A stretch of DNA of 64,000 bases from NCBI RefSeq assembly GCF_013282725.1, contig NZ_CP054043.1, positions 1,674,001 through 1,738,000 on the forward strand, read 5' to 3'. The notes beneath the pieces were generated by a model. That model had not been told where the DNA came from. It did no database searches and saw nothing but the letters and a program-made list of their open reading frames with translations. A program made the position numbers and the translations under genes. Every line of letters begins with the position of its first letter. The stretch's first letter is position 1. This DNA is from Yersinia mollaretii ATCC 43969 (lineage in GTDB: Bacteria > Pseudomonadota > Gammaproteobacteria > Enterobacterales > Enterobacteriaceae). Positions 13,987-24,085 of the stretch are shown here, in pieces.

Positions 13987-14709
13987 TTGGCTAGGTTATT
14001 TTTCAATAACGAATTAATCAATACTACTATAAAGAAGCAACTTGAACAAAAACTTGAAAAGTATAGGGATATAAAGTATGCATATGCAATAATGAATAAA
14101 AAGAACCCATCTGATTTTGTGGTTATTTCCAATTGGAAGAAATGGTTTGAATTTTATACACAAAACAATTTCCAGTTTACAGACCCTGTTCTTCTCATGG
14201 CCGCACATCGAATTATGCCATTCTCTTGGGATGAGAATATTATACTTAAGTTTCCAAGGTTATTCGATATGGCAAAAGAGTATAATATGATTAATGGATA
14301 TACCTTTGTCCTACACGATCAACATTCAAATTTGGTCGTTCTCTCTCTTAGTGCTGATAAAAATATAGATGTTGAGGAGATAATTGGTGATGATAAAGGT
14401 AATATTCAGTTGCTATTGATGATCACGCACGAAAAAATGACTTCACTTTATAAAGATCTGAATAGTAAGAACAACTATTATAAAATGAATGGAAATGAAA
14501 TTTTTTCAAACCGTGAAAATGAAATTATTTACTGGGCGAGTGTGGGTAAATCCTATCAAGAAATAGCGCTTATTTTAGGAGTAAAACTAACCACAATAAA
14601 AAATCATATGGGGAAAGTAGTTAGAAAGTTAGGAGTAACTAATGCCAAGCATGCTATAAGTATTGCAGTTGAGCTACAACTGATTAGAACGGTTATTCCT
14701 AATATATAG
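13987..14709 (+). CDS. LuxR-type acyl-homoserine-lactone receptor (orphan)
   Basis: A 240-residue quorum-sensing regulator. The N-terminal Autoind_bind domain (about 20-160) keeps the invariant ligand-pocket pattern: tryptophan and tyrosine in NWKKWFEFYTQNN, DP in FTDPV, PFSWDE, and the glycine in MINGYTF. The C-terminal LuxR helix-turn-helix (about 172-235) includes SNRENEIIYWASVGKSYQEI and the recognition helix TIKNHMGKVVRKLGV. It starts with TTG at 13987, placed 7 bases after AAGGAGG; an overlapping ATG at 13980 stops after four codons. No luxI synthase is in the window, so it acts as a solo or with a distant synthase. Its codons are strongly AT-biased compared with the backbone, which suggests transfer. 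Confidence 0.9.
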   Translation: MARLFFNNELINTTIKKQLEQKLEKYRDIKYAYAIMNKKNPSDFVVISNWKKWFEFYTQNNFQFTDPVLLMAAHRIMPFSWDENIILKFPRLFDMAKEYNMINGYTFVLHDQHSNLVVLSLSADKNIDVEEIIGDDKGNIQLLLMITHEKMTSLYKDLNSKNNYYKMNGNEIFSNRENEIIYWASVGKSYQEIALILGVKLTTIKNHMGKVVRKLGVTNAKHAISIAVELQLIRTVIPNI

Positions 14710-15568: not shown

Positions 15569-16735
15569 ATGAAAAGGAATATTCATCCGCCCTATCTGTT
15601 CGCCATTTTGTTTCCCGTAATACTTATCTCGCCAGCCCTAGCAGAAACACCTTTCAAACCAGAACGAATTAGTGTTGAAAAAGAGCTTAGGTCAGGACCA
15701 AGTCTGTTTGTTATAGATCAAAGCTGGAGCGGCACGAGTAGCATTACTGTACTGTCTGCGGATGATTTGAAAACAAAAGGTAGTATTTCCACTGGCCTTA
15801 TCGCACAGTTCCTTTTGTCAAAGAACAACAAGCAACTCTATACCGCCTCGGTATACCCGAAGCGCATTGTTTGGGGGCCAGTAGAAGCCGTCGTCCAGCA
15901 ATTCGATGTGAAAACTCTGTCATTAACCAAAGAAATACCAACGTCACCGAAGATGGCGCAAGTATCGGCCAGTATTAATAGCTTCAGGTTATCGGCTAAT
16001 GAAAAATATGCTTTTGTGCAAAATGCTACCCCCGCAGCCTCCGTCAATGTCATCGACATCACCAGCGGTAATACGTTGTTGGAAATTCCAACGCCTGGAT
16101 GCTGGGGTATCTATCCTTCTGCTGATGATAATCGCTTCAGCGCGTTATGCGGTGATGGCACTGTTGCCAGCTATCAAATCGCTACCGACCAGAAAGATTA
16201 TAAAGTAACCAAAAGCGACACTATTTTTGACGCGGATAAAGACCCGTTGTTTATCAGCTCACAGCGGGATGGCGATACGCTGATATTTACCTCTTTCAAC
16301 GGCAATATGTATCTGCTGAATGACAAAGAGATAAAAGTGACACTGACCGATAAGTTCAGTTACACCAAAGGAATTAAAAGCCATTGGGTACCAACGGGCT
16401 TTGAAATTCTTGCCTTCAATAAGCCCAATAATCTGATGTTCATCACTATGTCCCCAAATGGTAAGGAAGGTAGCCATAAATATGGCGCAAAAGAGATCTG
16501 GGGAATTGATATGGCCAGCCGCAAGGTAATTACCCGTGTGAAAACTGTCGATACTATTTCGTTGGCCGTTTCACAAACCCAAAAACCAGAACTATTCGCA
16601 CTGAGCGGAGGGGAGGGCGGCTCTGGCGGCACGGTGCTGAAATATATTTTCATCGGTCCTCAATTTACAGGGAAGGTCGTAGGAAAAGCAGCCAGATTAG
16701 GGACATTCAACCAATTTCTGATGGTGGATTATTAG
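15569..16735 (+). CDS. TTQ-dependent amine dehydrogenase, heavy (beta-propeller) subunit, MauB/AauB-like
   Basis: A 388-residue periplasmic protein with a Sec signal peptide (to SPALAE). The mature part shows the repeating blades of the seven-bladed propeller of methylamine/aralkylamine dehydrogenase heavy chains. The best family match is near the end: SHKYGAKEIWGIDMASRKVITR, then VDTISLAVSQTQKPELFALSGG. The start at 15569 is chosen because AAAAGG lies 7 bases upstream and the signal peptide follows; an earlier ATG at 15485 adds 28 residues with no signal character. The heavy chain holds the light chain carrying TTQ and shapes the substrate channel. First gene of the operon; the next begins 1 base after its stop. 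The gene order B-E-D-A followed by a small cytochrome c is that of aralkylamine (aau) clusters, so an aromatic amine substrate is favoured, but this is inference. Confidence 0.87.
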   Translation: MKRNIHPPYLFAILFPVILISPALAETPFKPERISVEKELRSGPSLFVIDQSWSGTSSITVLSADDLKTKGSISTGLIAQFLLSKNNKQLYTASVYPKRIVWGPVEAVVQQFDVKTLSLTKEIPTSPKMAQVSASINSFRLSANEKYAFVQNATPAASVNVIDITSGNTLLEIPTPGCWGIYPSADDNRFSALCGDGTVASYQIATDQKDYKVTKSDTIFDADKDPLFISSQRDGDTLIFTSFNGNMYLLNDKEIKVTLTDKFSYTKGIKSHWVPTGFEILAFNKPNNLMFITMSPNGKEGSHKYGAKEIWGIDMASRKVITRVKTVDTISLAVSQTQKPELFALSGGEGGSGGTVLKYIFIGPQFTGKVVGKAARLGTFNQFLMVDY

Positions 16736-16736
16736 T

Positions 16737-17294
16737 ATGGCTTCCCAACTAATGGCGCTATGTCACTTTATGCTAATAACATTCATCGCTCTGTTATTTA
16801 TTCAAACCGCCTTGCATAAAGGAAGTGATGTACGTCGTTTTTCAGGTTATGTGGCGAATTATCATCATTTGCTACAGCCATTCAGCCTGCCGCTCGCTTA
16901 TCTGCTACTGACATTGGAAATAGCTGCTACCGCGCTGGCAATATTCCCCGCAACATCAGTATTTGGGCAAAGTCTATTCCTCATGCTTTTGGCACTGTAC
17001 ACCTTGATGATGATACTTGGTGTTATCGGTGGTAAACGCGCTATTGACTGCGGTTGCAGTGGCACCCCGATTATGGTGTCGCCGCAAACCGTGGTGCGCA
17101 ACCTTTGCCTGATCATGCTGTGTGTGCTGATGATCGTGCTACCAGCAGTACCTATCAGCCAACCAACACTGACCGCCGCGATTATTGCCGGCTTCATATT
17201 GTGGATGGGATACCTCCTTACCGAACAGTTAATGCGTAATAGCGATCTGATAAATCGTTTCAGATATTCGCTTCATGATCAGGAGGCGCGATGA
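16737..17294 (+). CDS. MauE-like amine dehydrogenase maturation membrane protein
   Basis: A 185-residue inner-membrane protein with four predicted helices (about residues 5-22, 48-70, 75-97, 115-155) of the MauE/DoxX-like family. A conserved DCGCSGTP loop (about 103-110) follows GGKRAI and supplies a cysteine pair. In mau and aau systems MauE works with MauD to deliver and fold the disulphide-rich light chain in the periplasm; the cysteine pair may pass reducing equivalents to MauD. It begins 1 base after mauB and its end overlaps the mauD start (ATGA), so the genes are translationally coupled. Confidence 0.85.
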   Translation: MASQLMALCHFMLITFIALLFIQTALHKGSDVRRFSGYVANYHHLLQPFSLPLAYLLLTLEIAATALAIFPATSVFGQSLFLMLLALYTLMMILGVIGGKRAIDCGCSGTPIMVSPQTVVRNLCLIMLCVLMIVLPAVPISQPTLTAAIIAGFILWMGYLLTEQLMRNSDLINRFRYSLHDQEAR

Positions 17295-17896
17295 ATACCG
17301 TAATTATTTTTGTTCTTGGAATACTTTCCGTTTTAGTTCTCTTATTAATTGTTGCTTTTATTGCCTTATCACGTCAGGTGGGGGTGCTCTTTGAGCGTAT
17401 TACTCCTGTAGGAGCAATGCTAAATAATAATGGTCCTAAGACCGGTGAAATAACGTCAATTTACCGATTACTTTCGCTGAATAACGGTGAGATAACTATT
17501 GGGGGCCAGAAAAATAAGCATCAGTTGGTGCTGTTCATTTCCCCCACCTGCCCGATTTGCAAAGTGTTGTATCCCGTCATTGGCAGTATCAAAAAATCCG
17601 AATCGAAATGGCTTGATATTGTGCTGGCCAGCGACGGTGATGAACAGCAGCATCGTGCGTTTATCGAACAACAGCAGTTGGGTGATATTCCCTATGTATT
17701 ATCACCGGAGTTGGGAATAGCTTGGCAGGTTGCCAAATTACCGTTCGCGGTATTGCTGGACGAGCAGGGAAAAATTATCTCAAAAGGACTGATTAATAAT
17801 CGGGAACAATTAGAAAGTTTATTCAACGCCAAAGAAACCGGCTTCGCTTCCCTGCAAGACTATGCGCAAAAAGGCGCGCTCAACGTCAATCATTAA
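17291..17896 (+). CDS. MauD-like thiol-disulphide oxidoreductase
   Basis: A 201-residue membrane-anchored thioredoxin-fold protein. One N-terminal helix (about 4-26) is followed by a periplasmic domain with the redox motif CPIC at residues 87-90 in LFISPTCPICKVLYP, and a cis-proline region KLPFAVLLDEQG. MauD is required for correct disulphide formation in the light chain of TTQ amine dehydrogenases; without it the light chain is degraded. The light-chain gene follows directly after 18 bases with a GGAG ribosome binding site. Length matches family members (about 200). Confidence 0.9.
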   Translation: MNTVIIFVLGILSVLVLLLIVAFIALSRQVGVLFERITPVGAMLNNNGPKTGEITSIYRLLSLNNGEITIGGQKNKHQLVLFISPTCPICKVLYPVIGSIKKSESKWLDIVLASDGDEQQHRAFIEQQQLGDIPYVLSPELGIAWQVAKLPFAVLLDEQGKIISKGLINNREQLESLFNAKETGFASLQDYAQKGALNVNH

Positions 17897-17914
17897 CGAT
17901 ATTGGAGAACCACG

Positions 17915-18448
17915 ATGAAATTACTTTCACAATTTTTTAGTTTATTGGACAAACTATCGGAAAGAAGTGTACGCCATTCCGCGCGCCATATTGGTCGCCG
18001 CCATTTTTTGACTAAAACCGGTGCTTTTCTCGTCGGCGCGGGCGTATTACCGCTACTGCCCTTCGATCGTTCGTCAGGATCAGCGTTTGCCGCCGGTAAA
18101 CCAGCAGATGTAAATGAATGCAACTACTGGCGCTACTGCGCACTGGACGGCAACCTTTGTTCCTCTTCTGGTGGCAGCATTACGACTTGTCCGGTCGGCA
18201 CTGAAACGTCCAAAACATCCTGGGTCGGTACTTGCCGTAACCCGCATGACAACAAAAATTATCTGGTCTCGTATAACGACTGTTGTGGCAAGACAACGGT
18301 AGCAAACTCTGTGAACTGCTTTAACAATCAAGGAGAGCGCCCTGGCTACCGTATGGGATTGCATAATGATATCAACTGGTGCATGGCGAATACCAATAAA
18401 GGCTACCACTGCACAGTTGCAACATTAGTGGGAATCGCTAATGAGTAA
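17915..18448 (+). CDS. TTQ-dependent amine dehydrogenase, light (catalytic) subunit, MauA/AauA-like
   Basis: A 177-residue catalytic subunit. It has a long N-terminal leader with a twin-arginine motif (RRHFLTK from residue 28) and a hydrophobic run, so it should be exported folded or with help. The two TTQ-forming tryptophans are present: W103 in TSWVGTC (Trp57 of the Paracoccus enzyme) and W155 in INWC (Trp108). The equivalents of Asp32 (D78), Asp76 (D122), Tyr119 (Y164) and Thr122 (T167) are also kept, so the active site looks complete. The mature part has 10 cysteines, not 12; the missing two (S84 and V133) correspond to Cys38 and Cys86, which pair with each other in the known structure. 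Its end overlaps the next gene by 8 bases. Confidence 0.92.
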   Translation: MKLLSQFFSLLDKLSERSVRHSARHIGRRHFLTKTGAFLVGAGVLPLLPFDRSSGSAFAAGKPADVNECNYWRYCALDGNLCSSSGGSITTCPVGTETSKTSWVGTCRNPHDNKNYLVSYNDCCGKTTVANSVNCFNNQGERPGYRMGLHNDINWCMANTNKGYHCTVATLVGIANE

Positions 18449-18896
18449 AAAAATGCGGCTCTCAGCGATAGCCTGTCTTCTGGTGGTAACGTGCTATGCC
18501 TTGCCAGCCAGTGCGTTTGATGGGCATGACAAGTTTGTCGCTAACTGTTCAGGGTGTCACGGTGAGAATGCAAAAGGCATTGAGGGTATGGCGCCATCAC
18601 TCTATAACCCTGAACTGTGGGCCAAATTGGGAGACAAGCGTAATGACTATATTGCTGGTGTGCTCACCAGCGGGTTAAGCGGTACGCTAAAAACCAGTAA
18701 CAGCAGCTTTGATGGCATGGTGATGCCACCACAGGACTTTATTGACACCGCGGATCTGGTGGCGATCACCCATTATATCCTCAATGAGATAAATCATGTA
18801 GAGGGTGGGCCGGGGCCGGATGCCGTGCTGATCGATAAGCTGAAAAGCGCCCCGAAATCTCACAAGGATTTACAGGCATTGCGTAATGGGGACTAA
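18441..18896 (+). CDS. Periplasmic monohaem cytochrome c
   Basis: A 151-residue class I cytochrome c with a signal peptide (to PASAFD) and one haem site, CSGCH at residues 36-40. A methionine for the sixth ligand is available in DGMVMPPQDF. It starts inside the end of the light-chain gene (8-base overlap). In aralkylamine dehydrogenase clusters a small monohaem cytochrome c also follows the light-chain gene, so it is probably the first electron acceptor in place of amicyanin. Its maturation needs a Ccm system, which is not in this window. Confidence 0.88.
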   Translation: MSKKMRLSAIACLLVVTCYALPASAFDGHDKFVANCSGCHGENAKGIEGMAPSLYNPELWAKLGDKRNDYIAGVLTSGLSGTLKTSNSSFDGMVMPPQDFIDTADLVAITHYILNEINHVEGGPGPDAVLIDKLKSAPKSHKDLQALRNGD

Positions 18897-18899
18897 AAG

Positions 18900-19358
18900 A
18901 TGGCGATCGGATTATTCAATGTGAACGCGCTACGAATCATTTTTACGCTTGTGTTGTTCTCCTGCCCGTTATGCCATGCCCTGGGTAATACGCCCGAACA
19001 GAATTATATCCTGAAGTGCTCTGGTTGCCATGATATGGACGGTTCAGGCTCAGTGGCGGGGGGAATCCCCCCTCTGCCGGGTTATCTAGGAGCATTTGTC
19101 AACGATGCGGATGGTCGTTTGTATCTGATGCATGTCCCTGGCATTGTCGCCTCTGGGTTAGACGATCAGCAAATCGCACAGCTAATGAATTTTCTCAATC
19201 AAAAGTGGGGTGATGTGCAGCAAGGTTCTCCTTTCACTGACGCAGAGGTAAAGCAATTACGCGCCATGCCTATGACAGATGTAGTGAAGTTACGCCGTCA
19301 GATTGTGCAACGCTTTCTCAGAGAAGGTATTGCGACCGGTGATTACCCTTGGCCCTGA
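18900..19358 (+). CDS. Second periplasmic monohaem cytochrome c
   Basis: A 152-residue protein with an N-terminal signal (about residues 1-28, ending CHALG) and one haem site, CSGCH at 40-44, in YILKCSGCHDMDGSG. Possible axial methionines lie in YLMHVPG and QLMNFLNQ. It begins 3 bases after the first cytochrome and is only weakly similar to it, so the pair is not a recent tandem duplication. A role as a second relay between the amine dehydrogenase and the multicopper oxidase or the main respiratory chain is inferred from position. Confidence 0.82.
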   Translation: MAIGLFNVNALRIIFTLVLFSCPLCHALGNTPEQNYILKCSGCHDMDGSGSVAGGIPPLPGYLGAFVNDADGRLYLMHVPGIVASGLDDQQIAQLMNFLNQKWGDVQQGSPFTDAEVKQLRAMPMTDVVKLRRQIVQRFLREGIATGDYPWP

Positions 19359-19387
19359 ATGTAACCAAATAATATATAGGTACTGTC

Positions 19388-20863
19388 ATGGAAAGACGCC
19401 AATTCTTTAAATATTCTCTGTCCTCTCTGATGCTAGGAGGCTTGGTTAATCAGGTTCAGGGTGCAGATGCTCCGCATATTGACACGCCCGATGCCGACCT
19501 GTTGCCTGAAAATGCCCTAATAGCAGACCAGCCGCTTAAAATATTGGCGAAGCTGGCTAATGAGTCAACCAACAAAGGTGAATTTATCGCGGTGCTGACC
19601 GCCGAAGAGTGCCTCGTTCAACTGACGCACAATACCGCCCCCACCATTTGCTATGCCTATAATCAGCAGGTACCCGGCCCGCTGATAGAGCTAGAGGCCG
19701 GCATGAAAGTGCGGATAACCTTTGTCAATAACCTCAAAGTACCCAGCACTATTCACTGGCATGGACTACCGGTGCCACCCAATCAGGATGGGGGGCCGGA
19801 CGATCCGGTCGCGCCGGGCACCACCAAAGTCTATGAGTTTCAATTACCGGACTCACTCTCCGGCACCTATTGGTATCACCCACACCCGCTTAAGGGTACG
19901 GCGGAGCAGTTCGCAAAGGGGCTGGCAGGGCCGATGGTTATCCGTCATCCGCAGGAGTCTCTGGGCGACTTACCGGAAACCCATTGGGTAGTCAACGATC
20001 TGCGGCTGGATAGTACCGGCAAGGTGCCGCCGCATACATACGCAGACTGGGTTGATGGCCGTGAAGGCGAGTTTGTGCTGCTTAACGGCCAGTACAAACC
20101 GCACATGACCCTGACCAGCCAGCAGCGGATTCGTATCTGGAATATGTGCAGTGCGCGCTACCTCAATCTCTCACTGCCGGGTTGCCAGTTGATACAGGTT
20201 GGTTCAGATGGTGGGCTGATGGAAAAGGCGTTGGCATCACAACACGACATACTGCTGTCACCCGGTGAACGTATGGAGGTGTTGGTCACCGGCGAAAGCG
20301 GTGAGTACGGCATTAATCTGCTGCCTTACAATCGCCATCCAATGATAAGCAAACCGCCGGAAACCGCACAGATAATCGCCAATGTCAGTTTCAAAAAAGA
20401 GGTTTCACCTACCGTAATCGGTATTGCATTACGGGCGATTGAGCCACTACTGGAGGGGACTAATGTGCTGCGTGCCATTATGAGCGAGAAAATGGCGGAC
20501 ATTATGAAAAATAAAGGGGGTATTCCACCACGCGCATTTCTTATCAACGGTAAAGACTTTGAGCTTACACGTATGGATCTGTACAGTCAGGTGGGTAAAG
20601 TGGATCACTGGCAGATTATTAATGCTACGACGATGGATCACCCATTCCATATACATGGTGGGCAGTTTCAGATAGTGCAACGAGTCTATCGTGGCCAGAA
20701 AACATTATCGGAGTGCCTTGCCTGGAAAGATACAGTCAATGTACGTCCCGGTGAGATCGTTCATTTGCTGATGCTACAGGATAAGCCGGGAATGCGTATG
20801 TTCCACTGCCACATTATTGAACACGAAGAACTGGGCATGATGGGGAATTTGATGGTGGTATAA
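19388..20863 (+). CDS. Multicopper oxidase, Tat-exported
   Basis: A 491-residue three-cupredoxin-domain oxidase. The N-terminus MERRQFFKYS carries a twin-arginine signal. All four copper-binding motifs are intact: HWHG from H123, HPH at 164-166, HPFHIHG from H418, and HCHIIEHEELGMM from H473, which supplies the type 1 and trinuclear ligands with a methionine as axial ligand. It lacks the methionine-rich insert of CueO, which argues against a copper-detoxification role. It is the last gene of the amine dehydrogenase operon, 29 bases after the second cytochrome. It could reduce oxygen with electrons from the cytochromes, or act in oxidative TTQ synthesis, since mauG is absent. Both are inference. 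Confidence 0.88.
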   Translation: MERRQFFKYSLSSLMLGGLVNQVQGADAPHIDTPDADLLPENALIADQPLKILAKLANESTNKGEFIAVLTAEECLVQLTHNTAPTICYAYNQQVPGPLIELEAGMKVRITFVNNLKVPSTIHWHGLPVPPNQDGGPDDPVAPGTTKVYEFQLPDSLSGTYWYHPHPLKGTAEQFAKGLAGPMVIRHPQESLGDLPETHWVVNDLRLDSTGKVPPHTYADWVDGREGEFVLLNGQYKPHMTLTSQQRIRIWNMCSARYLNLSLPGCQLIQVGSDGGLMEKALASQHDILLSPGERMEVLVTGESGEYGINLLPYNRHPMISKPPETAQIIANVSFKKEVSPTVIGIALRAIEPLLEGTNVLRAIMSEKMADIMKNKGGIPPRAFLINGKDFELTRMDLYSQVGKVDHWQIINATTMDHPFHIHGGQFQIVQRVYRGQKTLSECLAWKDTVNVRPGEIVHLLMLQDKPGMRMFHCHIIEHEELGMMGNLMVV

Positions 20864-21336: not shown

Positions 21337-22458
21337 TTAATTTGATAGTGCGTGTTGCGGGTGTACTCCTAGCCATCCAGGAGATGGTTCGCCTTTTACT
21401 TCTCCGAGATATAAACCAATTTGCGTACGGAAACGCTCCACAGCAGCACGGTCATTCATAAAGGCTTCAAAGGCTTTATGGCTGGTATTTTTGTATTCCC
21501 ATATCGGTTTATATCCCTCGGGTGGTGTAACATCGGTACGTACAGACCACATGTACCATACTTCTTTCTGCGTTTTTTTGTCCAACAGCCAGTTTAGATA
21601 AAGTTTGGCTGCTTCTGGATGCTTGGCCTTTTTGAAAATGGCAGCCCGCTGTGCCCACGAAATAAAGGGATCATGCTCTGGCAAAATAAATCGTGAACGG
21701 GCCTTAGCATCAGGGACCAATGCCCCATCAGTCGAAAAGGTCGCCACAGCCTTACCACTTTCAACATCATCTGCTGGAGCTTGAGTTCCACGAACGTAGA
21801 TAGGATTTTGCATGTTGAATTTTGCTACATAGTCCCAGCCATAGTGCTCTACTGCCTGTTTGAACCAAAAAAGAACGGCATCATCGTCATTAGGATAGGT
21901 GACTACAATTCTTCCTTTTAGCTCTGGGCGTAGATAATCTTTCATTTCGCGCGGCCAGTCTTTTTGTGCCAACAGCGTTGTGTTAACAACATTACTGAAA
22001 GCATCTACAAATACACCTGTCCAGGCTCCATCTTTATCGCGAAAATCCGGCCAAATCTTATCCCAACCCACCGGTTTGTAATTGAGTAATAGGCCATCCT
22101 GCTTCCAACGTGGATAATCTTGCAGTGTTTGTAATTGTGCGATATCGGGTATTAGCGAGTCCGTTGCCAGTTGATTATCAATACGAGCGTCATGGAACTT
22201 ACTGTAGTCAACGATAACGTCCAGCTTCATCCCAGGGAATCGGTCTTCAAATGCCTTTTTAATTCCATTTTGCTGCGTTGACGTGTCTCCACCTGCGTAG
22301 ACAATAACGGTACCTCCTTCATCTAGCGCGCTTCGATACAGTTCATCCAGAGAACGCGTTTCTTGCACTGCCGTTGCCTGCGTGGAAAACGAGATCATCG
22401 TCGACATAACCACACAACATGCAGTCGCTGCTTTTATCTTGTTATTCAATAAGTTCAT
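21337..22458 (-). CDS. ABC transporter periplasmic solute-binding protein, orphan
   Basis: A 373-residue family 1 (AfuA/FbpA-type) binding protein with a signal peptide (to TQATAV). Typical features are the EGGTVIVYAGGDTSTQ strand-loop near the N-terminus, FEDRFPG, and LDKKTQKEVWYMWSVRTDV near the C-terminus. The ATG at 22458 has AAGG 6 bases upstream and opens a signal peptide; an in-frame ATG 72 bases earlier does not. No permease or ATPase gene is adjacent, so it must use a transporter encoded elsewhere or act as a sensor. Ligand unknown; iron, thiamine and small polyols are all bound by this class. Confidence 0.83.
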   Translation of the reverse strand: MNLLNNKIKAATACCVVMSTMISFSTQATAVQETRSLDELYRSALDEGGTVIVYAGGDTSTQQNGIKKAFEDRFPGMKLDVIVDYSKFHDARIDNQLATDSLIPDIAQLQTLQDYPRWKQDGLLLNYKPVGWDKIWPDFRDKDGAWTGVFVDAFSNVVNTTLLAQKDWPREMKDYLRPELKGRIVVTYPNDDDAVLFWFKQAVEHYGWDYVAKFNMQNPIYVRGTQAPADDVESGKAVATFSTDGALVPDAKARSRFILPEHDPFISWAQRAAIFKKAKHPEAAKLYLNWLLDKKTQKEVWYMWSVRTDVTPPEGYKPIWEYKNTSHKAFEAFMNDRAAVERFRTQIGLYLGEVKGEPSPGWLGVHPQHALSN

Positions 22459-23233
22459 AATGTGCCTTGATTGTATTTTTATCCATTTATTATTGTTGGA
22501 TGAGGGGCTATAAAACACATACAATGCCATCCGTTATGGCATTTACCTCCGGATGAAGAAGATAGAGTCAGTAGAGATTCGCTATATTTATGTCATTATG
22601 GCATGTACAAGTCTCCACAAAATAAAAAACAGATATACCGTAAAAATAACGAACCAACTCTTATCAGAGTCTCTATTGCTTTTATATAAAGATAGAAGAT
22701 AAGACCAAACTTATAAATTAACTACCACCACACTCTACTTGAAATATAGTGATAACATCACGTAATTATTTTAAGGTAATAAGAGACTACCATCAATTAT
22801 TAAAACATTGTGCTTAACTTAGTAAAATATACAAACCACCCATAACAAAAATAGCTACAATGCAACACATTGTTTTTATTTTACTTTTATAGCTTTACGC
22901 ATGAAAATAACGATAATTACTGAAAACCAAAAACTATCGGCGTATCGCCTTTAAGCAAGACGCATTCCGTTACAGAATAAAGTAAATAGAAATGTTTAAT
23001 TATTGATATTTGTATGACATTTTATTTTTGATGTTTATAGAACATTTAATGGCTAAATCATTTTATTTTTCATAAAAACTATTTAGTATTGTACGTCTAA
23101 TTAAAAATGCAACTTTAAAGCTATGTTCTGATTAATAAGAAACCATGCCTGAAAATATCGCTGATACATTTCGTAAGTCCTATCGCTGCTAATAACTAGT
23201 AGCTTAATATTATCCCACAAAAAATGAAAAACA
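22459..23233. other. AT-rich divergent intergenic region
   Basis: About 775 bases of low GC between the binding protein and the metallo-beta-lactamase-fold gene. No gene, clear promoter pair or good dyad could be assigned. Base composition matches that of 13.5-15.5 kb and fits a transferred region. Confidence 0.5.
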
Positions 23234-24085
23234 ATGACAACAAATATTGACGTACCACACACGGCAACGCCCGACTCAAGCTTGAGTTGGAAACATTTTC
23301 CAGCGGGTAAAGATGGCTTCTATCGCTCTCCGGTTTTGATAACTGGTGCCAGAGAAGCAGTGCTCATTGATGGCGGTTTTACTTTATCTGATGGCAGGTA
23401 TTTACTTGAAGCTATCAAGGAAACAGGGAAAAAGTTGACGACTATCTACATTAGCCAAAGCGATCCAGACTATTACTTCAGCCTTGCCCCCATCAAAACC
23501 GCATTTCCAGATGTACGCGTTATCGCTGCACCAGAAACCATCGACGCTATCAAAAAAAGTGTTGATAAAAAAATTGAGGCTTGGGGAACTCAGCTTAAGG
23601 ATAACGGACCTCAATCCTTTGCTGATATTGTTATGCCAGAACCATTTGATGACCCAGAGATAAATCTGGAGGGCCATTCTCTCAAGATTATCAATGCCGT
23701 AGGTCTTGCCAATCGCCGTTACATCTGGGTTCCTGCTTTGAGTGCTATTTTCGGTGGCGTGTTACTGTTTTCTGGCACGCATGTCTGGACTGCTGACACC
23801 GTAGGTGCTGAAGCCCGTGCTTGTTGGCTAAAAAATCTAGAGTCGATGGCATCATACAAACCCACTGTTGTCATCGCTGGGCATATGGAACCAGAGGCAG
23901 CTATTGATAATTCGGCGATAATTTATACTCGGGACTATTTACTGGCCTTCGAAGATGAACTTGCAAGGGCCAGTGATAGCGTAGAACTTATCATAGCAAT
24001 GACACGCCGATATCCCGATGCTGGGATGGAGATTGCACTGAAAATTGGTGCAAAAGTTGCTAAAGGCGAAATGAGTTGGGGGTAA
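23234..24085 (+). CDS. Metallo-beta-lactamase-fold protein with degenerate metal site
   Basis: A 283-residue protein of the metallo-beta-lactamase fold. It keeps the AVLIDGGFTLSDG strand, a later GVLLFSGTHVWTAD segment and the C-terminal IAGHMEP (a GH motif). The usual HxHxDH metal motif is replaced by SQSDPDYYF, in which the two expected histidines are Gln and Tyr. Related hydrolases have a HPDPDH-like sequence there. It therefore probably binds metal poorly or works differently; a non-enzymatic or altered role is inferred. It lies between the ABC binding-protein gene and tRNA-Phe, within the accessory region. Confidence 0.75.
   Translation: MTTNIDVPHTATPDSSLSWKHFPAGKDGFYRSPVLITGAREAVLIDGGFTLSDGRYLLEAIKETGKKLTTIYISQSDPDYYFSLAPIKTAFPDVRVIAAPETIDAIKKSVDKKIEAWGTQLKDNGPQSFADIVMPEPFDDPEINLEGHSLKIINAVGLANRRYIWVPALSAIFGGVLLFSGTHVWTADTVGAEARACWLKNLESMASYKPTVVIAGHMEPEAAIDNSAIIYTRDYLLAFEDELARASDSVELIIAMTRRYPDAGMEIALKIGAKVAKGEMSWG

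Follow-up and report, generated by a model that had tools for sequence, protein, structure and literature searches.

The closest described relatives of the system considered here are the operons for amine dehydrogenases that carry a tryptophan tryptophylquinone (TTQ) cofactor, namely the mau operons of Paracoccus and Methylobacterium, for methylamine dehydrogenase (MADH), and the aau cluster of Alcaligenes faecalis, for aromatic amine dehydrogenase (AADH). In MADH, maturation of the cofactor is reportedly a six-electron process, and finishing it is the job of the diheme protein MauG; Chistoserdov is said to have found in 2001 that the aau cluster lacks mauG. Here we analysed a 64-kb stretch (the window) of the single-contig, 4.60 Mb genome of Yersinia mollaretii ATCC 43969, in which seven intact open reading frames (ORFs) on the + strand (15569-20863) encode a heavy chain, MauE- and MauD-like proteins, a light chain, two cytochromes (cyt1 and cyt2) and a multicopper oxidase (MCO). 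Intergenic spacing in this operon runs from -8 (an overlap of the light-chain and cyt1 genes) to 29 bases (between the cyt2 and MCO genes). An earlier reading made from the DNA alone (the sequence-only reading) had proposed that these seven genes, with this spacing, are a complete operon for a TTQ amine dehydrogenase in an enterobacterium, with B-E-D-A-cytochrome gene order; the ORFs, Pfam matches, conserved residues and gene order all bear this out, to a degree well past what chance would give. That reading knew of no described system in Yersinia, and our literature search likewise turned up no paper describing a TTQ amine dehydrogenase operon in Yersinia or enteric bacteria. The operon has the B-E-D-A core in common with mau, but is without amicyanin, MauJ, MauG and MauF and has extra cytochromes and the MCO; compared with the aau cluster, whose order we take to be B-E-D-A-cytochrome as well, it adds the MCO as a seventh gene. 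We consider it an even bet that the whole forms a self-contained periplasmic amine-oxidising unit with the roles for cyt1, the MCO and cyt2 set out below.

The light and heavy chains are very probably those of a TTQ quinoprotein amine dehydrogenase, which would convert a primary amine to an aldehyde and ammonia on TTQ. In an alignment of 109 light-chain rows, 105 of them distinct (Y. mollaretii, 107 from fetched loci and the AADH segment), the two TTQ tryptophans that the sequence-only reading had pointed to, W103 and W155, are invariant (Table 1). So is the predicted catalytic aspartate D122, which we take to be D128 beta of A. faecalis AADH; T167 is presumably T172 beta of the same enzyme. 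Ten cysteines are also present in all 109 rows. Two further cysteine pairs are optional and come and go whole: 84-133 is complete in 31 rows and absent from 78, and 85-129 is complete in 47 and absent from 62, with no half pairs of either kind. The Y. mollaretii light chain has neither pair and that of A. faecalis AADH has both; three of the four mau-operon light chains have 84-133 only, and the fourth (L176) has both. This cysteine pattern is good evidence that the Y. mollaretii light chain would adopt the same disulphide-knotted fold, and MauD and MauE, by homology, would help to fold so disulphide-rich a chain. Moreover, a grouping of the light chain with unrelated cysteine-rich proteins, a check that the sequence-only reading had named, does not occur in the PDB matches, the alignment or the tree.

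Among PDB sequences, AADH is the best match for both chains, with 152.6 bits for the light chain (2agl_D; best MADH, 134 bits) and 153.7 bits for the heavy chain against the AADH alpha chain (MADH, 48 bits), and the TTQ fold, both tryptophans, the aspartate and the threonine are common to the A. faecalis and Y. mollaretii enzymes. We rejected MADH itself as the identity of the enzyme: the scores on TIGR02658 and TIGR02659 were 94.3 of 454.45 bits and 157.3 of 196.85 bits, and profiles for MauG and MauF (built from four mau operons) had no match at 0.001 anywhere in the window. The sequence-only reading had also matched the gene order to aau clusters. The B-E-D-A-cytochrome order holds, but the kinship may not be specifically with aau, since in a quick tree the A. 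faecalis AADH light chain (a long branch, represented by a 112-residue segment) fell outside an 89-row clade that holds the Y. mollaretii light chain (Shimodaira-Hasegawa-like approximate likelihood ratio test, SH-aLRT, 97). By these comparisons the Y. mollaretii enzyme appears to be one of a large clade of uncharacterised proteins that is closer to AADH than to MADH. An aromatic or longer amine is a likelier substrate than methylamine.

The sequence-only reading held that two cytochromes and an oxidase made the set look self-contained. The genes are indeed present, but the two cytochromes do not look like equivalent relays. cyt1 has an axial-type methionine (M95-P96, with M95 in 67/73 aligned sequences) and looks like an electron carrier, to which reduced TTQ probably passes its electrons. 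cyt2, as aligned, is without a conserved axial methionine: leaving out the start, no methionine column exceeds 59 of 92 rows (M77, 57; M96, 59), H78 is His in 73 of 92, and in 13 of 83 cyt2 proteins the distal zone (residues 70-90) is devoid of Met, His, Lys and Cys. Compared with Thermus thermophilus cytochrome c552, cyt2 is also without a stretch of about 16 residues. The axial methionine of c552, which we take to be Met69, aligns in HMMER opposite approximately residue 83 of cyt2, and two sister proteins place a methionine in the V79 column. Nor is cyt2 a MauG or a bacterial cytochrome c peroxidase, which have two CXXCH sites and PF03150; it has a single CXXCH and no PF03150, and had no match in Pfam or NCBIfam at 0.001. 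(Note that the list of structures similar to cyt2 contains no MauG-type chain, which proves nothing.) What cyt2 would share with MauG is the proposed role alone, the haem-based completion of TTQ: cyt2 would use its haem to activate H2O2 or O2 and thereby complete the cofactor, as MauG does in MADH. We regard the chances of this step as evenly poised.

The distribution of cyt2 bears on its role. A scan of named genomes yielded at least 570 confirmed light-chain stretches, of which the best 80 were analysed with flanks of up to 10 kb (about 10 kb on both sides for 57 of them). A cyt2 with the VPG motif was found in 78 of these 80 loci, and contig ends truncate the remaining two; within those flanks, none of the 80 had MauG or MauF. 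(Note that the cyt2 profile used here was built from loci that included some of those scanned.) Similarly, strong cyt2 matches (133-193 bits) in 398 Pseudomonadota genomes came to 13 loci in 11 genomes, with the next match at 43 bits, and these loci adjoin the 13 full light chains of exactly the same 11 genomes. The profile for that search included rows from those loci; one built without loci L164-L173, though with Y. mollaretii and G121, still found all ten at 112-201 bits. Among 14 plasmid records examined of the 31 that matched, nine carry cyt2 but have no MauG in the surrounding 8 kb. The four mau operons among these records, from which the MauG and MauF profiles were built, all contain both of those genes and lack cyt2. 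PF03150 is absent from 18 of 39 genomes or records, Y. mollaretii among them (one of the 18 being a plasmid record), and MauG-type enzymes are therefore not a general TTQ factor.

The idea that cyt2 stands beside every light chain of this kind was nevertheless rejected on a sample of 74 Derxia-family genomes, 15 of which have light-chain loci, 17 in all. Seven of these loci have an adjacent cyt2 (two of the seven, L206 and L211, repeat the named loci L031 and L040), eight have an intact light chain without it, one is at a contig end, and at L227 there is a protein like cyt1 together with a weak relative that bears a Met. Similarity to AADH does not by itself explain which loci have cyt2, because over 112 residues the eight cyt2-less light chains are 64-67% identical to A. 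faecalis AADH and those of L205 and L208, which have cyt2, are 68% identical. All eight cyt2-less loci have two neighbouring MauG-family ORFs approximately 8-12 kb downstream (188-249 bits on the MauG profile from mau operons; with some of the called starts the ORFs come out too long), with a small CMGCH cytochrome beside them that scores 20-30 bits on the cyt2 profile, and L227 has a MauG-family ORF with four CXXCH motifs (412 bits) approximately 16 kb downstream. Six MauG-like proteins from L232, L239 and L245 scored 149-223 bits on TIGR03791 (MauG), below its cut-off of 444; known MauG proteins are also below it, with 97 bits for Paracoccus denitrificans and 109 for P. yeei. PF03150 was found in four of the six, four having been run on Pfam. 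As a control we read 15 cyt2 loci to approximately 18-26 kb on each side (one G945 locus had only 8 kb on one side), and 14 were without a MauG-like match. Thus, MauG-like genes accompany 9/9 cyt2-less loci with enough flank versus 1/15 cyt2 loci. The apparent exceptions thereby become support for two maturation routes, and on this account we raised the odds for the cyt2 step from somewhat below even to even. (Such pairs of MauG-like diheme genes at cyt2-less loci were seen at L219-L226, L232, L234, L235, L237, L239, L241, L243 and L245. The gene next to the light chain differs among cyt2-less loci; in L223 it is a DUF1329 gene.)

An alternative is that both cytochromes are plain carriers, with electrons running from the light chain through cyt2 and cyt1 to the MCO or the membrane, and with TTQ made by an unlinked factor or by self-processing. 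The homology of cyt2 to cyt1 (hhalign probability 99.3), its c552 fold, and M77 and H78, either of which could ligate haem in many cyt2 proteins, all speak for such an arrangement. It sits less well with the lack of a conserved methionine, with the 13 proteins bare of candidate ligands in the distal zone, with the retention of cyt2 at the 17 of 91 loci that have no cyt1, and with the MauG-like genes at cyt2-less loci. Moreover, the seven that were read of eight weak matches to the cyt2 profile, all seven in genomes with no match to the light chain, keep GxMP or GMP. We consider plain carriage by both proteins unlikely, if still a serious contender.

Several points weigh against assigning cyt2 to TTQ completion. 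M77 and H78 are frequent in cyt2, and over the 62 residues that follow CXXCH every one of 83 cyt2 proteins has a Met, a His or both, so that a haem ligand is possible in the Y. mollaretii protein. Of nine small cytochromes from cyt2-less loci, four have Met and five Val in the V79 column, and Val at this position alone is therefore no mark of a special haem. The AlphaFold model of cyt2 carries no haem. One cyt2 locus, L274 (G1154 C12), has a MauG-like gene (181 bits) approximately 11 kb off on the other strand; the eight cyt2-less loci, of Alcaligenaceae type, look like one lineage and hence few independent events; and weak light-chain-like genes of Thermomicrobium have neither MauG nor cyt2 nearby. 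(On a Thermomicrobium roseum plasmid, L181, we saw three light-chain-like ORFs within approximately 6 kb, at 47, 42 and 33 bits.) Even so, cyt2, which differs from MauG in its single haem site and its fold family and in nearly all cases examined occurs at other light-chain loci than MauG, is a good candidate for a TTQ-maturation factor that alternates with MauG-like enzymes.

The MCO that ends the operon keeps all four copper motifs, type 1 and trinuclear (HWHG123, YHPH163, HPFHIHG418 and HCHIIEHEELGM473). Its best sequence match in the PDB is 3zx1 (396 bits), an entry titled oxidoreductase that we take to be Campylobacter McoC, and its best NCBIfam match is CueO (NF008205), at 229.5 bits against a cut-off of 525. 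These matches would fit an enzyme for copper tolerance or copper supply that travels with the operon without drawing electrons from cyt1, and copper motifs and an RR leader are indeed common to the MCO, CueO and 3zx1. We nonetheless rejected CueO as its identity, given the sub-cut-off score and the presence in the same genome of a true CueO (951.9 bits). A copper-tolerance role is also hard to square with that resident CueO and an FtsP (952 bits), the only other MCOs in the genome, with only four Met in residues 340-400, presumably the place of the Met-rich insert of CueO, and with a gene that follows cyt2 so tightly and ends the operon in all seven enterobacterial genomes examined. Unlike CueO, moreover, the MCO is linked with a cytochrome c and dehydrogenase operon. 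We judge the copper-tolerance explanation improbable, slightly more so than plain carriage by both cytochromes.

We lean instead, by a small measure, towards the MCO of Enterobacterales taking electrons from cyt1 and reducing O2 to water. A haem that passes electrons to a cupredoxin enzyme has a parallel in the fusion of a c552-type haem domain to three-domain copper nitrite reductases. In a search for haem-copper oxidases across 38 distinct genomes (G405 being the same as G416, and G306 the same as G417), all seven enterobacterial genomes have the MCO in the operon, no match to ccoN and one COX1-family gene each. In Y. mollaretii, where alone the neighbours were read, this gene adjoins CyoA-, CyoC- and CyoE-like ORFs (by eye), as in a ubiquinol oxidase. 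In the other 31 genomes no close MCO adjoins the light chain, and ccoN scores over the cut-off in 29 of them; these include two Vibrio genomes, nearest outside Enterobacterales proper, whose operons end at cyt2. Because the MCO occurs only in enterobacterial genomes without ccoN and the others mostly have ccoN, the association is suggestive of a private terminal oxidase that would replace a missing cytochrome c oxidase in Enterobacterales, a reading confounded by phylogeny. Against it, the association is approximately one clade deep and may reflect one historical event, and in G431 and G436 ccoN falls under the cut-off, with five and three COX1-family matches whose types were not assigned. A diheme cytochrome c peroxidase was rejected as the electron sink, since PF03150 had no match in the seven enterobacterial genomes (an E. 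coli control was positive).

It is also conceivable that electrons go to other periplasmic c-type acceptors (nitrate, nitrite or trimethylamine N-oxide reductases) or to the quinone pool, and that the MCO helps to mature TTQ through the oxidation of intermediates. The MCO is indeed encoded in one operon with an enzyme whose TTQ takes six electrons to mature. This MCO is missing from the operons outside Enterobacterales, however, so that it is not a general maturation factor, and nitrate and nitrite reductases have donors whose potential is low for electrons that come from a haem of the c552 type. We give this arrangement little credence.

With the MCO as oxidase, the net reaction would be that of a copper amine oxidase with water in place of peroxide. 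The copper/topaquinone amine oxidase TynA would do the same net job in the periplasm; the TTQ and MCO route, unlike TynA, would yield water. (A search of the Y. mollaretii genome for the copper amine oxidase family PF01179 gave no match, but the E. coli control was negative too, so this control is uninformative.) A role in nitrogen scavenging or amine removal is likelier than one in respiration, because no energy would be conserved at the MCO. A combined proposal would be that cyt2 is an unrecognised one-haem, open-coordination TTQ completer at loci that lack MauG, so that there are two maturation lineages (diheme MauG-like and cyt2), and that the enterobacterial operon is a complete water-forming amine oxidase with a private MCO supplied by cytochrome c; we think it somewhat doubtful as a whole. 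Amine oxidation on TTQ is the step that follows from the enzyme family; the later steps are inferred from the genes.

The light-chain family is common overall and rare in enterics. A protein database gave 3233 light-chain relatives at E 0.001 among 3312 candidates. Counted by genome, the PF02975 light chain occurs in 2 of 25 sampled from Yersinia, in 6 of 392 from the GTDB family (spread over 4 of 154 genera), in 6 of 394 from the GTDB order, where the G307 match is a broken remnant, and in 13 of 398 from Pseudomonadota. Full-length genes are present in 11 of these 13, at 13 loci; the other two have one partial match of 24.5 bits and one 22-bit match with stops. (Light-chain remnants with internal stops are at G307:C47:9968-10195 and G1074:C1:1656488-1656691. 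G121 has two different light-chain operons, L111 and L112, and in both of them the heavy-chain gene is closely preceded by a gene that by eye resembles those for TonB receptors.) The search of Enterobacterales genomes that the sequence-only reading had suggested thus extended the finding to Y. massiliensis, Buttiauxella, Tatumella and three Chimaeribacter species, each with the same seven-gene unit, so that the operon is not peculiar to one genome. Among the loci read, a close MCO (>670 bits in full-length loci) follows cyt2 only in these relatives; L018 and L021 have distant MCOs nearby, at 84 and 128 bits.

In Chimaeribacter arupi the seven-gene unit sits on a 353 kb plasmid, and no flanking ORFs are common to the Y. 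mollaretii and Y. massiliensis copies. Quick trees of the light chain and the MCO are alike (supports 88-99): Y. mollaretii groups with Y. massiliensis, then with Buttiauxella and Tatumella, with Chimaeribacter apart. Because Yersinia groups with Buttiauxella and Tatumella, and Chimaeribacter stands apart though it and Yersinia are both Yersiniaceae, the trees suggest that the unit may have been inherited or transferred as a block. Less tidily, the two Vibrio light chains, from operons without the MCO, fall between Chimaeribacter and the other enterobacterial rows (SH-aLRT 88), so that gain or loss of the MCO is not cleanly placed, and the MCO tree does not settle the branching order of the Chimaeribacter, Yersinia-Buttiauxella-Tatumella and Phytobacter (P0132-P0140) groups. 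(Members of the last group are approximately 50% identical to the operon MCO, and one is named Phytobacter.) So sporadic a spread, together with the low-GC surroundings of the operon in Y. mollaretii, might be taken to mean that the operon is a decayed or idle transferred relative that makes no TTQ. With all seven genes intact, the TTQ residues conserved and the unit kept in seven genomes, we hold this to be very improbable indeed.

Table 1. Positions of the operon genes, key residues and neighbouring genes in the window.
Feature	Position	Strand	Basis
Heavy chain (AauB/MauB-like)	15569..16735	+	PF06433, 80.4 bits (cut-off 21); ordinary signal peptide by eye
MauE-like membrane protein	16737..17294	+	PF07291, 71.8 bits (cut-off 27)
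MauD-like thioredoxin-fold protein	17291..17896	+	TIGR02661, 178.2 bits (slightly under cut-off 188.6)
Light chain (AauA/MauA-like)	17915..18448	+	PF02975, 168.6 bits (cut-off 25); RR-type leader, twin-arginine translocation (Tat)-like, by eye
Light chain W103, predicted first TTQ tryptophan	18221..18223	+	109/109 light chains; codon read
Light chain D122, predicted catalytic Asp	18278..18280	+	109/109 light chains; codon read
Light chain W155, predicted second TTQ tryptophan	18377..18379	+	109/109 light chains; codon read
Light chain T167	18413..18415	+	Thr 97, Ser 12 of 109; codon read
cyt1, monohaem cytochrome c	18441..18896	+	PF00034, 38.2 bits; ordinary signal peptide by eye
cyt2, monohaem c552-like protein	18900..19358	+	One CXXCH; ordinary signal peptide by eye
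cyt2 VPG motif, close to the usual axial-Met place	19134..19142	+	Alignment and codon check
MCO	19388..20863	+	Three Cu-oxidase domains (Pfam); RR-type (Tat-like) leader by eye
LuxR-type regulator with autoinducer-binding domain	13987-14709	+	GC 31%
Solute-binding protein	21337-22530	-	PF13343
Metallo-beta-lactamase-fold hydrolase	23234-24085	+	Nearest Vmh type, 258 bits (cut-off 430)

Three genes around the operon are listed for completeness (Table 1). The LuxR-type gene is solitary in a low-GC stretch; it was set aside as a possible regulator of the operon, since by eye Y. massiliensis, Buttiauxella and Tatumella have other upstream ORFs. The solute-binding protein is weakly like 2-aminoethylphosphonate-binding proteins and has no adjoining permease genes; on a Pseudomonas aeruginosa plasmid, an ABC transporter annotated PhnV and CysW is divergent to the amine dehydrogenase. 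A relative of the metallo-beta-lactamase-fold hydrolase (362 bits) lies near the light chain in Chthonobacter L080. We also rejected a genomic island at tRNA-Phe, as no repeat of at least 14 bases of the tRNA stretch occurs elsewhere in the window, and promoter and terminator scans gave a signal no higher than in shuffled sequence.

Taken together, the operon would pair a TTQ amine dehydrogenase with an oxidase of its own, in bacteria that seem to be without another route from cytochrome c to O2. If this is so, bacteria without a cytochrome c oxidase could operate a quinoprotein linked to cytochromes by supplying the copper oxidase themselves, which would be a simple explanation of how such enzymes crossed into Enterobacterales. 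In addition, cyt2, which has one haem and whose linked gene takes the place of MauG-like genes at one locus or another, would be a named candidate for the completion of TTQ outside mau.

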